This document shows, piece after piece, positions 2,743 to 39,595 of a DNA stretch of 41,383 nucleotides. The DNA is taken from IMG/VR virus record IMGVR_UViG_3300001533_002311, positions 1 through 41,383 of that record; one strand, given 5' to 3'. Position 1 is the first letter of the stretch. The number at the start of each line of letters is the position of its first letter. A program made the translations under genes and the position numbers. The notes under the pieces were generated by a model, which did not search any database, was not told the origin of the DNA, and was given only the letters and a program-made list of their open reading frames with translations. Origin of the DNA: a virus.

Positions 2743-3165
2743 ATGGTTAGAATATTTAAGGTTGATATTGAACAAGATAGACGAAAAACTATCGGGGTTT
2801 CGTTGTATTATATTTTGTCAACTTGTGTTGATGGTGAGACAAATATGCTCAAAATAAATGGCAGACCAATGAACACAATGGATATATGTGCATATGCTAA
2901 TTATACAAGAAAGGAATTGTCAAAGGCAATCAGAACATTGTACTATAAAGGGATTATATTGAACGTCAGAACTGGTGGCAAAGATTTGTTCTTTATAAAT
3001 CCAGAATTTGTTAGAGACGAAAATAAGACCGTATTGGATTTCCCGTTTTTGAATGAACTATTTGACGGTGAGAGTAATATGGATGTAAAAGACCTTGTGT
3101 ATTTTAGGAAAGGTCATCGCAAAATAAGCATAGATATAGGTAGTGTTCTACCAGAGGTAAAATAA
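2743..3165 (+). CDS. RepL-like winged-helix DNA-binding protein
   Basis: This 140-aa protein carries a winged helix-turn-helix in the middle: residues near 45-65 (MDICAYANYTRKELSKAI) form the helix pair, followed by a GIILNVRTGG wing and the phrase FFINPEFV. The helix plus 'NPE' pattern is like the RepL family of Firmicutes plasmid replication proteins and like phage wHTH regulators. It has an AAAGGA ribosome site about 12 nt before the ATG. It overlaps the next gene by one base (TAATG), so it is the first gene of the deazaguanine operon. It may initiate replication at the upstream AT-rich region or control the operon; the sequence does not decide between these. Confidence 0.6.
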   Translation: MVRIFKVDIEQDRRKTIGVSLYYILSTCVDGETNMLKINGRPMNTMDICAYANYTRKELSKAIRTLYYKGIILNVRTGGKDLFFINPEFVRDENKTVLDFPFLNELFDGESNMDVKDLVYFRKGHRKISIDIGSVLPEVK

Positions 3166-3518
3166 TGTATACGATAAGCAAACGATTCCAATTCTCAGCA
3201 TCACATTTGTTAAATAATTTAGAAGAAGGACATCCTTGTTCGAGAAATCACGGGCATAATTACGAATTGACGATATACCTTGCCAGTAAGGAACTTGACA
3301 AACAGGGGTTTGTTCTTGATTATCAGAAACTTGATTTTGTAAAACAATATGTAAATAAGTTTCTTGACCATCGCTGTCTTAACGATGTCTTTGATTTCAA
3401 CCCGACAGTTGAGAATATGACAAAGAAGATATATGACTTATTTAAGCCAAAATGTCCACAGTTATTGGCAGTTGCGTTAAGTGAAACACCTAATACGGAG
3501 TGCATATATGAACCTTAA
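3165..3518 (+). CDS. queD: 6-carboxy-5,6,7,8-tetrahydropterin synthase (QueD)
   Basis: This 117-aa protein converts 7,8-dihydroneopterin triphosphate to 6-carboxytetrahydropterin, the second step towards preQ0. The zinc ligands are His14 (SASH), His29 and His31 (NHGHNY), and the catalytic Cys25 and the LDHR motif at 67-70 are in place. The C-terminus ends with the family-typical SETPN and E-IYE. The length matches bacterial QueD (about 120 aa). Its ATG overlaps the stop of the preceding gene and its end overlaps the queE start by 11 bp, so translation is probably coupled. Confidence 0.93.
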   Translation: MYTISKRFQFSASHLLNNLEEGHPCSRNHGHNYELTIYLASKELDKQGFVLDYQKLDFVKQYVNKFLDHRCLNDVFDFNPTVENMTKKIYDLFKPKCPQLLAVALSETPNTECIYEP

Positions 3519-4089
3519 TATAGTAGAAATATTTTCGTCTATTCAGGGCGAAGGATTACATACTGGTCAGCTTGTAACATTTGTTAGACTTGCCGGGTGC
3601 AATATGAACTGTCCGTTTTGTGACACAGATTGGCAAAGCAATCAAAAACAAATGAGTCTTAGTGCAGTTTTGAGGGAGGTTAGGAAATATCCGTCAAATG
3701 TTATTGTTTGGACTGGTGGAGAGCCATTGCTCCAGTTAAAGGAAGAATGTTTATTTTTCGGGTATAAACACTATTTAGAAACAAACGGCTCATTGCCGCC
3801 GATTAAGGGATTAGATTATATTACAATAAGTCCAAAAGTACCCACAGATATGTTAAACAAAAACTTTCGGGGGTTTTGGAATATAGGAGAAATAAGGTAT
3901 CCGATAAAAGTAGGCGATGTTGTTCCGAATATAGATGAACTACCTATTGCACGGAATTACTATTTAAGTCCAATTTTTGACGGAGATAAGTTGATAATAC
4001 AGAATGTAAAATATTGTATGGAACTAATAGAAAGGAGACCAAGGTGGAGACTGTCAGTACAAACACACAAGCTATTGAATCTTACCTAA
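3508..4089 (+). CDS. queE: 7-carboxy-7-deazaguanine synthase (QueE), radical SAM enzyme
   Basis: This 193-aa enzyme makes 7-carboxy-7-deazaguanine from 6-carboxytetrahydropterin by a radical S-adenosylmethionine ring contraction. The [4Fe-4S] ligands are Cys31, Cys35 and Cys38 in [12 protein letters not shown]. The SIQGEG start motif is at 11-16 and the SAM-binding GGEP at 70-73. I chose the ATG at 3508, which starts directly at the conserved N-terminus; an in-frame GTG 27 bp upstream lies deep inside queD. The end overlaps folE by 46 bp. Confidence 0.93.
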
Positions 4090-4613
4090 AAGACATATTG
4101 GGTTATATAGGTGATGACCCAGATAGAGAGGGTTTAGTTGAAACGCCGCACAGGATTGTAAAATCTTGGGAAAAGTTATTTGGTGGGTATGAACAAAATC
4201 CTTACGATGTAATTAAAACATTTGAAGACGGTGCTTGCAATGAAATGGTGATATTGAAAGACATAGAGTTTTACTCTACGTGTGAGCATCATTTCTTGCC
4301 ATTTTTTGGCAAAGTACACATTGCGTATATCCCGAATGGGAAAGTAGTCGGTGTTTCAAAACTTGCAAGATTAGTTGAGGTATATGCAAGACGATTACAA
4401 ATACAGGAAAGACTTGTAGGACAAATAGCAGATTGCATTTCTGAGGTTCTTAATCCAGATGGTGTCATGGTTGTTTGTCAGGCACAGCATTTTTGTATGA
4501 TAAGCAGGGGAGTTGAAAAACAAAACTCTATTATGGTAACAAGTGCAGTGCGTGGCGTTTTCAAGGATATTGCAAAGACAAGAGAAGAATTTATGTCTCT
4601 TATATCCATGTGA
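4044..4613 (+). CDS. folE: GTP cyclohydrolase I (FolE)
   Basis: This 189-aa enzyme converts GTP to 7,8-dihydroneopterin triphosphate and so feeds QueD. The zinc ligands Cys80, His83 and Cys151 are at the family spacing (CEHH; later QHFCM). The substrate-binding [17 protein letters not shown] stretch at 103-119 is intact. The start is a GTG at 4044, placed 7 nt after the ribosome site AAAGGAG; the upstream TTG at 4014 has no such site. Phage-borne FolE raises the flux into the pathway above the host level. The stop overlaps the next start (ATGTGAG). Confidence 0.93.
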
Positions 4614-4927
4614 GTTGTATCGTGAAATTTGTTATTGATATAGATGGAGTTATAGCAGAAGAGAGAAGTAATCATCTTGAATATAGTAAGTGTGTACCTA
4701 AAAAGGATGTAATTGATTGTGTAAATAAACTATTCAATTCTGGCAATTATATCATCTTGTTTACATCGAGATTTGAGGTTGATAAACAAGTAACAATGAC
4801 ATGGCTTGAAAAAAACAACGTATTATACAATGAACTAATTCTTGGAAAACCAAGGGCAGATTTTTATATAGATGATAGAGCAATGCGTCCAAATGAATTT
4901 AAGGAATTGTGTGAGCAAAATGTATAA
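4610..4927 (+). CDS. HAD-superfamily phosphatase-like protein
   Basis: This 105-aa protein has the HAD motif I DIDGV near residues 10-14 (nucleophile Asp and the second Asp), motif II Ser/Thr-like FTSR near 48-51, and a C-terminal [12 protein letters not shown] that fits motifs III and IV (Lys and the Asp pair). The length fits small capless HAD hydrolases. The start is GTG at 4610, overlapping the folE stop; GTG at 4622 is an alternative that gives the usual 'xKFVIDIDG' N-terminus. It sits inside the deazaguanine operon with overlaps on both sides, so it may act on a pathway intermediate or nucleotide, but its substrate is unknown. Confidence 0.7.
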
Positions 4928-5579
4928 ATCTGTTTTGTTAATGTCTGGCGGTATAGATAGTTTTATAGGCTACTATCTGCTCGGTTATCCGCAACCTGTT
5001 TATTTTAACCTAAATTCCAAGTATTCTAAGGTTGAAATTAATACGGTGCATAAAATATCTGATAAAGTGATTATAGATAATGACTTGAATTTTCTTGGGA
5101 GACTTGAAGATAAAGATGCTCATATTCCATATAGAAACTTGTTTTTTATGTTGCTCGGTGTTACCAAATATTCTGATACTGTGATAATATGTGGGGTTAG
5201 AGATGACAATGTGTCTGATAAAGACAGTAAGATTTTTAGGAAGATGTCTGACTCTTTATCATATGTAGCAAAAAGAAAAATTGAGATAGTTTCTCCGTTT
5301 TGGAATTTTACAAAGGCAGACATTTGTGCCAAGTTTGCAAACAAATTTGACAAAAGACTCTTATTGCAAACATACTCTTGTTATTCTGGCAAAGAGATTG
5401 AATGTGGAGCTTGTCCTGCTTGTTTTAGAAAAAGAGTTGCTCTTTTTAGCATAAATATTTTTATGCCATTCAATAATGACTTGTTGCTTTCTAAATATGA
5501 AGCCAATATGAGTAACTATGACGACCAAAGACAACTTAATATGAAAAAATATATCAAGTATATAAGGGACAGTAAATGA
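4920..5579 (+). CDS. queC: 7-cyano-7-deazaguanine (preQ0) synthase (QueC)
   Basis: This 219-aa ATP-dependent enzyme turns 7-carboxy-7-deazaguanine into the nitrile preQ0. The PP-loop SGGIDS is at residues 9-14. Four zinc-binding cysteines (154, 162, 165, 168) lie in the C-terminal CGACPACFRKR segment, as in QueC. It overlaps the HAD gene by 8 bp and the DpdA-like gene by 4 bp (ATGA). No amidotransferase domain is fused to it and no QueF is seen nearby, so the end product is expected to be preQ0 rather than an amidated or reduced form. Confidence 0.92.
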   Translation: MYKSVLLMSGGIDSFIGYYLLGYPQPVYFNLNSKYSKVEINTVHKISDKVIIDNDLNFLGRLEDKDAHIPYRNLFFMLLGVTKYSDTVIICGVRDDNVSDKDSKIFRKMSDSLSYVAKRKIEIVSPFWNFTKADICAKFANKFDKRLLLQTYSCYSGKEIECGACPACFRKRVALFSINIFMPFNNDLLLSKYEANMSNYDDQRQLNMKKYIKYIRDSK

Positions 5580-36045: not shown

Positions 36046-36211
36046 TTAGTGTTTGCGTTTTTTCATGTGCTTAAACATTTCAATTTGTCTTAACCGTTTC
36101 TGCGCCTGCTTCTTTGTTTTATAAGTCCCAAGCTTGCGACCACTACGGCCAATATCACTCTATAGTTGTTTGGTGTCAAGCTGAAACAGTATGCTGTGAG
36201 TATGTTATCAT
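36046..36211 (-). pseudogene. Small gene split by an R2 repeat (43 aa when rejoined)
   Basis: On the minus strand ATG at 36211 follows GAGAGG and reads MITYSQHT, then runs into R2 copy D (36154-36187), which brings a stop codon. The frame continues after the repeat as IGRSGRKLGTYKTKKQAQKR and ends KHMKKRKH at 36046. Without the 34-bp unit the two halves join in frame (132 bp, 43 aa). The second part resembles small phage proteins with the 'GrxLGTYkTkxqAqkRLrQiE' pattern. This is direct evidence that the repeat is an insertion in a gene. Confidence 0.7.
36154..36187 (+). repeat. R2 repeat, copy D (solitary, CRISPR-repeat-like)
   Basis: This 34-bp unit is read on the plus strand from ATCACTCTATAG to the end CAAGCTGAAAC. 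It is identical to copy A (39491-39524), and is alone here with no spacer. The 3' GAAAC end is typical of CRISPR repeats. On the minus strand it contains TTGACA with GATATT 17 bp further, so it also looks like a promoter. Confidence 0.8.
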
Positions 36212-36610: not shown

Positions 36611-37051
36611 TTAGTATTTAAATTTCCAGTCCTCTCCCTCCACAGCATTAACGCTGGAGCAGATAGACTGCCATAATCCTGCTCTGAAACTATCTTTTTG
36701 AGTGCATCTCATCAGTAAGCAAACTTCCTGCCACTCATCAGACAACTTATCCATAGGACTGAGAACGGTCTCGATTTTCATATTGAAATCTGTCCCTTTC
36801 CTATTCTCAACCACATTTATCTTGACAGAGACTGCTTCCCCAATCAAGATAACTTCTATGCCTTCTTCGGTCTTCATAACATAGGCAGTTCTCTCCTCAA
36901 AGAGGAGTTCTGCCTCATAAATCAGCTCTCTCAATTTCTGGCGAGCATAGAACTTTGCGCAGGAGTCTCCATGCCCTTTTGTAACCAAACTCAGTTCGAG
37001 TTTTTTTCTTGTTATGTATTTGATTTCATCTGAGGTCATAATGTGACTCAT
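36611..37051 (-). CDS. Accessory protein, unknown, 146 aa
   Basis: This soluble alpha-beta protein starts MSHIMTSDEIKYITRKKLEL and has a strand segment (GIEVILIGEAVSVKINVVE) and a helical C-terminus with three Cys. GGGAGG precedes the ATG at 37051. It is a middle gene of the minus-strand group. Family not recognised. Confidence 0.6.
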   Translation of the reverse strand: MSHIMTSDEIKYITRKKLELSLVTKGHGDSCAKFYARQKLRELIYEAELLFEERTAYVMKTEEGIEVILIGEAVSVKINVVENRKGTDFNMKIETVLSPMDKLSDEWQEVCLLMRCTQKDSFRAGLWQSICSSVNAVEGEDWKFKY

Positions 37052-37159
37052 TTTGAGCCTCCCTGTTTTTTTTTGTGCAAGGCTTGCGCCTGCACATAAG
37101 CTTAAAATATAAAGAGTACAGTTTCAATCCTTGATGTATTGGATATATGGATAAATACC
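37026..37159 (-). pseudogene. Possible tiny gene split by R1 copy 1 (31 aa when rejoined)
   Basis: Just after the resolvase stop there is TAAGGAGA on the minus strand, a strong ribosome site with no gene behind it. If the 38-bp R1 unit (37121-37158) is removed, a GTG forms across the junction 9 nt after this site and opens a frame of 31 codons (MYSLYFKLMCRRKPC and on) that ends inside the start of the next gene. The product is short and overlaps another gene, so it is only weakly supported, but it matches the pattern at the other repeat sites. Confidence 0.3.
37121..37158 (-). repeat. R1 repeat, copy 1 (solitary, CRISPR-repeat-like)
   Basis: This 38-bp unit begins GTATTTATCCATATATCC on the minus strand and ends AAGGATTGAAAC. 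The ATTGAAAC end is the classic 8-nt handle of many CRISPR repeats. It is identical to copies at 38770-38807 and 38843-38880. It lies alone between the genes at 37051 and 37173. Confidence 0.85.
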
Positions 37160-38633: not shown

Positions 38634-38734
38634 GATAAACACTCCTTATTGGTTTCCATCGTTTGAGAAGAAACCGTCATTGGCGTCTTCGCTTGAATAT
38701 TGATTAGATTTGGGTAGGCTTGCCCCGCAATAGG

Positions 38735-38880
38735 GGCAGATTACATGGTCAAGGTCGCAGTCACGCTTCGTTTCAATCCTTGATGTATTGGATATATGGA
38801 TAAATACGGCAGATTACATGGTCAAGGTCGCAGTCACGCTTCGTTTCAATCCTTGATGTATTGGATATATGGATAAATAC
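38735..38880. repeat. Perfect 73-bp tandem duplication
   Basis: 38735-38807 and 38808-38880 are identical. Each copy consists of 35 bp of gene sequence (GGCAGATTACATGG to CACGCTTC) and one R1 repeat. Thus the 'spacer' between the two R1 copies is an exact copy of the gene sequence to their left. Confidence 0.95.
38770..38880 (-). CRISPR. R1 mini-array: two 38-bp repeats, one 35-bp spacer
   Basis: R1 copies at 38770-38807 and 38843-38880 are identical to each other and to the copy at 37121. The spacer 38808-38842 is 35 bp, a usual CRISPR size, and equals the flanking 38735-38769. The repeat end on the minus strand is GGATTGAAAC. No cas gene or leader is seen. It may be a viral mini-array, a tandem duplication of an inserted repeat, or a trace of a host array that targets this phage. 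Confidence 0.6.
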
Positions 38881-38944
38881 AATTGTGCAGGAATAAGTCC
38901 CGTTGGAATTTCTCTGCAAATACGGGCAAGCATCAAGACCTTAT

Positions 38945-39005
38945 ATCACTCTATAGTTGTTGGTGTCAAGCTGAAACTGTCAAGCTGAAACTGTCAAGCT
39001 GAAAC
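38945..39005 (+). repeat. R2 repeat, copy C, with tripled 14-bp end
   Basis: 38945-38977 is R2 with one T missing (33 bp). Its last 14 bases (TGTCAAGCTGAAAC) then occur twice more, at 38978-38991 and 38992-39005, in perfect tandem. Small tandem growth of one end like this suggests slippage or repeated end-joining at the repeat. Confidence 0.85.
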
Positions 39006-39446: not shown

Positions 39447-39595
39447 TTAGGTTTTCATCGCCAATAGCGGTGAAATTACTTGTAGCCTTAATCACTCTAT
39501 AGTTGTTTGGTGTCAAGCTGAAACTTAGACATATTGCGGTTGTAAGCATTTGTTCATATCACTCTATAATTGTTTGGTGTCAAGCTGAAATGCAT
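39447..39595 (-). pseudogene. Tiny gene split by two R2 repeats (26 aa when rejoined)
   Basis: If R2 copies B (39558-39591) and A (39491-39524) are removed, the minus strand reads ATG right after the previous gene's stop (GGATGAAAA, a ribosome-site-like stretch), 26 codons (MHEQMLTTAICLIRLQVISP and on), and TAA just before the next gene's AAGGAGG. The fit between neighbours is good, but so short a product is not proof. Confidence 0.4.
39491..39591 (+). CRISPR. R2 mini-array: two 34-bp repeats, one 33-bp spacer
   Basis: Copy A (39491-39524) is identical to copy D at 36154. Copy B (39558-39591) differs at two bases (A for G at position 12, T for C at the last base), like the worn last repeat of a CRISPR array. 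The spacer 39525-39557 (TTAGACATATTGCG and on) is 33 bp and appears to be original phage gene sequence. No cas genes are nearby. Confidence 0.55.

Follow-up and report, generated by a model that had tools for sequence, protein, structure and literature searches.

How does a phage come to carry a one-spacer CRISPR-like array whose spacer is identical to the sequence that directly abuts it? The locus in question lies in a 41,383-nucleotide IMG/VR virus record (IMGVR_UViG_3300001533_002311; the window hereafter, meaning the whole stretch of DNA analyzed). This record represents a tailed phage with terminase, portal, protease, and tape-measure genes, and it has relatives in IMG/VR. Solitary repeats and mini-arrays are known from viruses, but the means by which phages gain repeats, and the step from a solitary repeat to an array, are unsettled. 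Here, a solitary repeat, a mini-array with a self-matching spacer, and a probably interrupted gene are found side by side, and the arrangement looks like a snapshot of the repeat-to-array step.

A Perfect Tandem Duplication Contains a Repeat–Spacer–Repeat Unit

Tandem Repeats Finder reports positions 38735–38880 (no strand assigned) as a tandem of period 73 with 2.0 copies and 100% identity, and a letter-by-letter comparison finds the two 73-bp units equal. The initial annotation had described a perfect 73-bp tandem duplication whose spacer is identical to the 35 bp beside the first repeat, and both analyses confirm this description. The duplication is therefore firm. Each unit consists of a 35-bp flank and a 38-bp repeat, which we call R1 (GTATTTATCCATATATCCAATACATCAAGGATTGAAAC). 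The unit cannot be slid along the sequence, given that the bases beyond it differ at both ends. Read on the minus strand, it starts exactly at the 5′ edge of R1 and ends exactly 35 nt beyond the R1 3′ edge.

R1 is present without mismatch at 37121–37158, 38770–38807, and 38843–38880, always on the minus strand (three exact copies in the window versus zero expected in shuffles). In CRISPR orientation, which is that of the minus strand, the locus reads as an upstream sequence (A), R1, the spacer, R1, the same 35 nt, and the remainder of a gene. The upstream repeat of the pair (copy 1, 38843–38880) is identified both as an exact repeat and by its match to the Rfam family CRISPR-DR7. It is followed by the 35-nt spacer GAAGCGTGACTGCGACCTTGACCATGTAATCTGCC at 38808–38842 and then by the downstream repeat (copy 2, 38770–38807), an exact repeat. 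The segment at 38735–38769 (minus strand) is identical to the spacer, abuts copy 2 with a gap of zero, and runs on into codons for a CPYCG zinc ribbon, making it the protospacer-equivalent, original segment of the probably interrupted gene. Thus, the spacer equals the stretch that immediately follows the final R1 copy.

The third copy is solitary (37121–37158, minus strand) and is likewise an exact repeat with a DR7 match. It lies between a RuvC gene and the gene at 36611–37051, within the right arm of the phage, a region of small minus-strand genes. In two relatives (L018 and L020), the RuvC gene is followed by AAGGAG and then by the start codon of thyX. The window carries the same AAGGAG ribosome-binding site, and 10 bases on, where these relatives have the thyX start, is the solitary R1. 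R1 is absent from the related phages G004 and G005, in which the RuvC gene and one neighbor are shared and AAGGAG and the thyX start come after RuvC; other genes occupy the site of the probably interrupted gene there.

Several features of these genomes are recorded here in their own right. The thyX gene of L018 (10180–11844) contains a long internal insert, probably an intein, and encodes 554 amino acids compared with 220 in L020. Two tRNA genes are present in L020 (3219–3378) and none in the window. Genes at window positions 3165–5579 encode 6-pyruvoyl-tetrahydropterin synthase/QueD-like, radical SAM, GTP cyclohydrolase I, and QueC proteins, and constitute a 7-deazaguanine cassette, probably for DNA modification.

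R1 Has the Characteristics of a Type I-B CRISPR Repeat

When the R1 38-mer alone was compared to 4227 Rfam families, the top match was CRISPR-DR7 (28.5 bits, E value 1.1e-4), with a score below the curated cutoff of 37 for this family. The three matches listed are all to CRISPR families, and the DR7 match has the correct strand and 3′ end. On this strand, R1 terminates in ATTGAAAC, as is typical of such repeats. The three R1 copies are the only matches to CRISPR families in the whole window, and a search of 58 kb of sequence from relatives against Rfam yielded no CRISPR-family match.

The 3′ half of R1, when up to 3 mismatches are allowed, identifies arrays in two of 250 Bacillota genomes, with 89 copies in G055 and 7 copies in G126; a reversed-pattern control in the same scan gave one stray match. 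Among 13 genomes from the order of G126, five carry the 3′ half and three of these five have several copies. The closest array, in G412, has 2 mismatches and a period of 73. The arrays of G055 and G126 adjoin Cas8b, Cas7, Cas5b, Cas3, and Cas1 genes of type I-B. These two arrays have periods of 71–77 bp and spacers of 34–40 nt, mostly 35–37; those of G055 are 35–40 nt long, with 35 nt being one of the two commonest lengths. The phage pair (38 + 35, period 73) falls within these ranges of period and spacer length. In its 3′ half, R1 is identical to repeats of type I-B arrays at 21–22 of 24 positions, and over its full length it matches the two operon-linked repeats (G055 and G126) at 24–25 of 37 positions, with a differing 5′ third. 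Judged by these sequence comparisons, R1 as read on the minus strand belongs to the type I-B class of CRISPR direct repeats. The term “mini-array” used by the initial annotation is correct as to form, and it gains independent support from this class assignment.

Searches for a matching host array covered several collections. Neither exact R1 nor its 21-mer core was found in IMG/VR, and the exact 21-mer was absent from arrays in GTDB r220. Two GTDB r220 matches of the core are located inside Lachnospiraceae coding sequence and were rejected as chance occurrences. Full-length R1 was not found at up to 3 mismatches in 399 Bacillota genomes, plasmids and phages gave weak matches only, and searches for R1 and R2 (a second repeat family, described below) as words in papers returned nothing relevant. 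The spacers of the G055 and G126 arrays have no match in the phage or its relatives, with the best alignment having 10 mismatches. Because DR7 also matches one of the controls, Methanosarcina acetivorans, we considered an archaeal host, but the amidase and DnaB helicase genes of a kin phage make a bacterial one likelier. No cas genes were detected by PADLOC among 20 proteins of the window.

The Mini-Array Probably Interrupts a Small Zinc-Ribbon Gene

If the 111-bp R1–spacer–R1 segment is left out, the flanking sequences at 38641–38936 (minus strand) join into a single 58-codon frame (MLARICREIPTGLIPAQLKRDCDLDHVICPYCGASLPKSNQYSSEDANDGFFSNDGNQ) that includes the CPYCG motif and is preceded by AAGG five bases before the ATG. 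With the segment in place, this frame is broken. Flanks would be expected to match in frame by chance about one time in three. The 58-codon product has matches to zinc-ribbon families, all of them weak, and no intact copy or close relative of the gene was found in IMG/VR. This modest evidence suggests that R1 probably interrupts a small gene.

A Second Repeat Family Is Present Nearby

A 34-nt repeat family that we call R2 (ATCACTCTATAGTTGTTTGGTGTCAAGCTGAAAC), found on the plus strand at 36154–36187, is another candidate CRISPR-like element. Two copies at 39491–39591 (plus strand), the second starting at 39558 and having 2 mismatches, are separated by a 33-nt gap in a layout resembling a mini-array. 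A damaged copy at 38945–39005 (plus strand) has its last 14 nt tandemly tripled, with the unit ending exactly on the R2 edge. R2 ends in TGAAAC, and the pair spaced 33 nt apart has a CRISPR-like layout with a weak hairpin. Neither the rest of the window nor the relatives nor phage records contain a match to the 33-mer between the paired copies, and searches for R2 in IMG/VR, plasmids, 250 Bacillota genomes, and Rfam gave nothing convincing. R2 could be another repeat of CRISPR-like type, or else a promoter or operator element of the phage.

Origin of the Identical Spacer

Three origins had been offered for the spacer: tandem duplication after a single insertion, self-acquisition of neighboring DNA, and an assembler path from a phage protospacer into a host array. 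The first of these fits best. Duplication of a repeat together with its flank is the simplest explanation because a randomly drawn spacer would need to abut the repeat without a gap. Self-acquisition agrees with the observed order, as A-R-S-R-S (where R is R1 and S is the 35-nt segment) is expected from leader-side acquisition, but the sequence upstream of the mini-array is no more similar to the G055 and G126 leaders than shuffled sequences are. The assembler path does not fit in the form offered, since it predicts A-S-R-S-B (B being the remaining gene) rather than the observed A-R-S-R-S-B; it requires A beside S, and A is never beside S here. The most that a host array with this spacer could have done is to add apparent copies to an R1 that was already in place.

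The edges of the duplication deserve attention. An edge that falls exactly on a repeat edge has a chance of about 1 in 18, and plain slippage does not explain an ending on the repeat edge together with a remainder of spacer length. A second local duplication, the tripled 14-mer of the damaged R2 copy, likewise stops precisely at the border of a repeat (about 1 in 12). Both duplications could stem from cuts made at repeat borders, which is where Cas1–Cas2 cuts.

Possible Functions of the R1 Elements

Phage repeat RNA can inhibit CRISPR systems, and solitary repeats act as RNA anti-CRISPRs, including against type I systems (PMC10651486). With this precedent, we lean toward the interpretation that this cas-less phage carries repeat mimics of the RNA anti-CRISPR type and that one of these became a one-spacer mini-array by tandem duplication. 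A repeat of the type I-B class would have been acquired without cas genes and, we infer, inserted twice into the early minus-strand region. One inserted R1 would have remained solitary. The other would have broken the small zinc-ribbon gene and then been duplicated with the next 35 bp to yield repeat–spacer–repeat. Transcripts that cross the R1 sites may offer repeat RNA to host Cas6 and Cascade proteins. By analogy, the likeliest role of R1 is that of a decoy that mimics the repeats of a type I-B host, in which case the duplication would raise the repeat dose. Against a decoy, the searches described above gave no host array with R1, the DR7 score and the full-length identity to the operon-linked repeats are low, and two R1 copies reside in what appears to be coding sequence, while the solitary repeats counted in published searches are intergenic.

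As a side effect, the R1 pair may give rise to one true crRNA. Such a crRNA is predicted to be harmless to the carrier because both genomic copies of the spacer are preceded by R1, which would constitute a self signal rather than a PAM. It could be harmful to relatives that have an intact version of the gene.

An alternative that we consider unlikely makes this targeting the primary function. The mini-array would then be a crRNA gene for conflict between phages, with a spacer that matches a gene of close relatives and with R1 at the 5′ edge of the target removing the PAM of the carrier itself. Host adaptation, or else recombination with a host array, would have supplied the spacer. Published phage mini-arrays can target related phages, usually without leaders, and their spacers are often directed against adjacent genes of close relatives rather than against themselves (PMC6858448). 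The gap-free repeat–target junction and the A-R-S-R-S order, which fits leader-side acquisition, are also consistent with this proposal. Moreover, only 2 of 8 letters agree between the crRNA handle ATTGAAAC and the flank in its ancestral state, GCACAATT, and so a relative would not resemble self; comparison of this flank with the type I-B PAMs of Clostridium pasteurianum gave no PAM assignment. However, no relative with an intact gene was found in IMG/VR, phage records, or the relatives (G004 and G005 have other genes at the site), no leader-like sequence is present upstream of the mini-array, and spacer identity is more simply explained by duplication. A kin-directed crRNA could nonetheless be produced from a locus with this sequence.

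A more elaborate version, which we regard as improbable, combines insertion and adaptation. A repeat would first have landed precisely on the 5′ edge of a protospacer. Host Cas1–Cas2 would then have taken the repeat-flanked 35 bp as a spacer, creating a crRNA gene that spares the carrier and targets its relatives alone. If true, the R1 insertion would at once strip the phage of its PAM and arm it against related phages.

It is similarly doubtful that the phage has one R1 or none and that the remainder was added from a host array by the assembler or by chimeric reads. R1 is repetitive, and the same contig has another likely artifact in the form of a perfect 91-bp inverted repeat at its left end (1–91 and 120–210), which is probably a fold-back read or an assembly error and on which two Rfam matches are probably spurious. 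But besides predicting the wrong order, this explanation needs separate reads for the A–R junction, and the third R1 has different flanks. By our own reasoning, a two-copy 73-bp tandem also forms no cycle in a de Bruijn graph at k of at least 73.

There is little likelihood, and the findings on R1 already disfavor it, that R1 and R2 serve the phage as operators or promoters and are CRISPR-like by resemblance only. In favor of regulation, R2 contains the hexamer TTGACA as read on the gene strand, three intergenic regions have it upstream of genes on the minus strand, one of its copies resembles a promoter at 10 of 12 positions, and it lacks Rfam and genome matches. On the other side, the R2 −10 region is outside the conserved block, and R1 has a specific CRISPR-DR7 match, related true arrays of the same period, and two copies inside a small reading frame, which would be odd for an operator.

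Comparison with Known Systems

The Bacillota type I-B arrays (G055, G126, and G412) and CRISPR-DR7 share with R1 the handle ATTGAAAC, the period, and the spacer length. They differ in the 5′ third of the repeat and in being full arrays with varied spacers, two of which (G055 and G126) are adjoined by cas operons.

Virus-borne mini-CRISPR arrays, which are known from portogloboviruses and from phages (PMC6858448), also have one or two spacers between repeats and no cas genes, as is true of 38770–38880 with its single spacer, and those of phages are leaderless. Archaeal-type examples have an upstream leader that allows acquisition, which the phage mini-array lacks. A further distinction is that their spacers match other viruses and not the carrier, whereas the spacer described here is the sequence abutting the array in the same genome, matching its carrier exactly and no other phage searched.

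Solitary repeat units, or Racrs, are known for almost all CRISPR types (PMC10651486). Unlike these, R1 is also doubled inside a probable gene, possibly accompanied by a second repeat family, and has no host match; the pair at 38770–38880 would be excluded from Racr searches as an array. For a Racr, identity to a known repeat should reach 90%, or the subtype should be that of the host system; the 3′-half and full-length identities of R1 given above are to be set beside the first of these. R1 is a CRISPR-class repeat in a phage without cas genes, and the solitary copy at 37121–37158 is, as Racrs are, a cas-less intergenic repeat on a mobile element.
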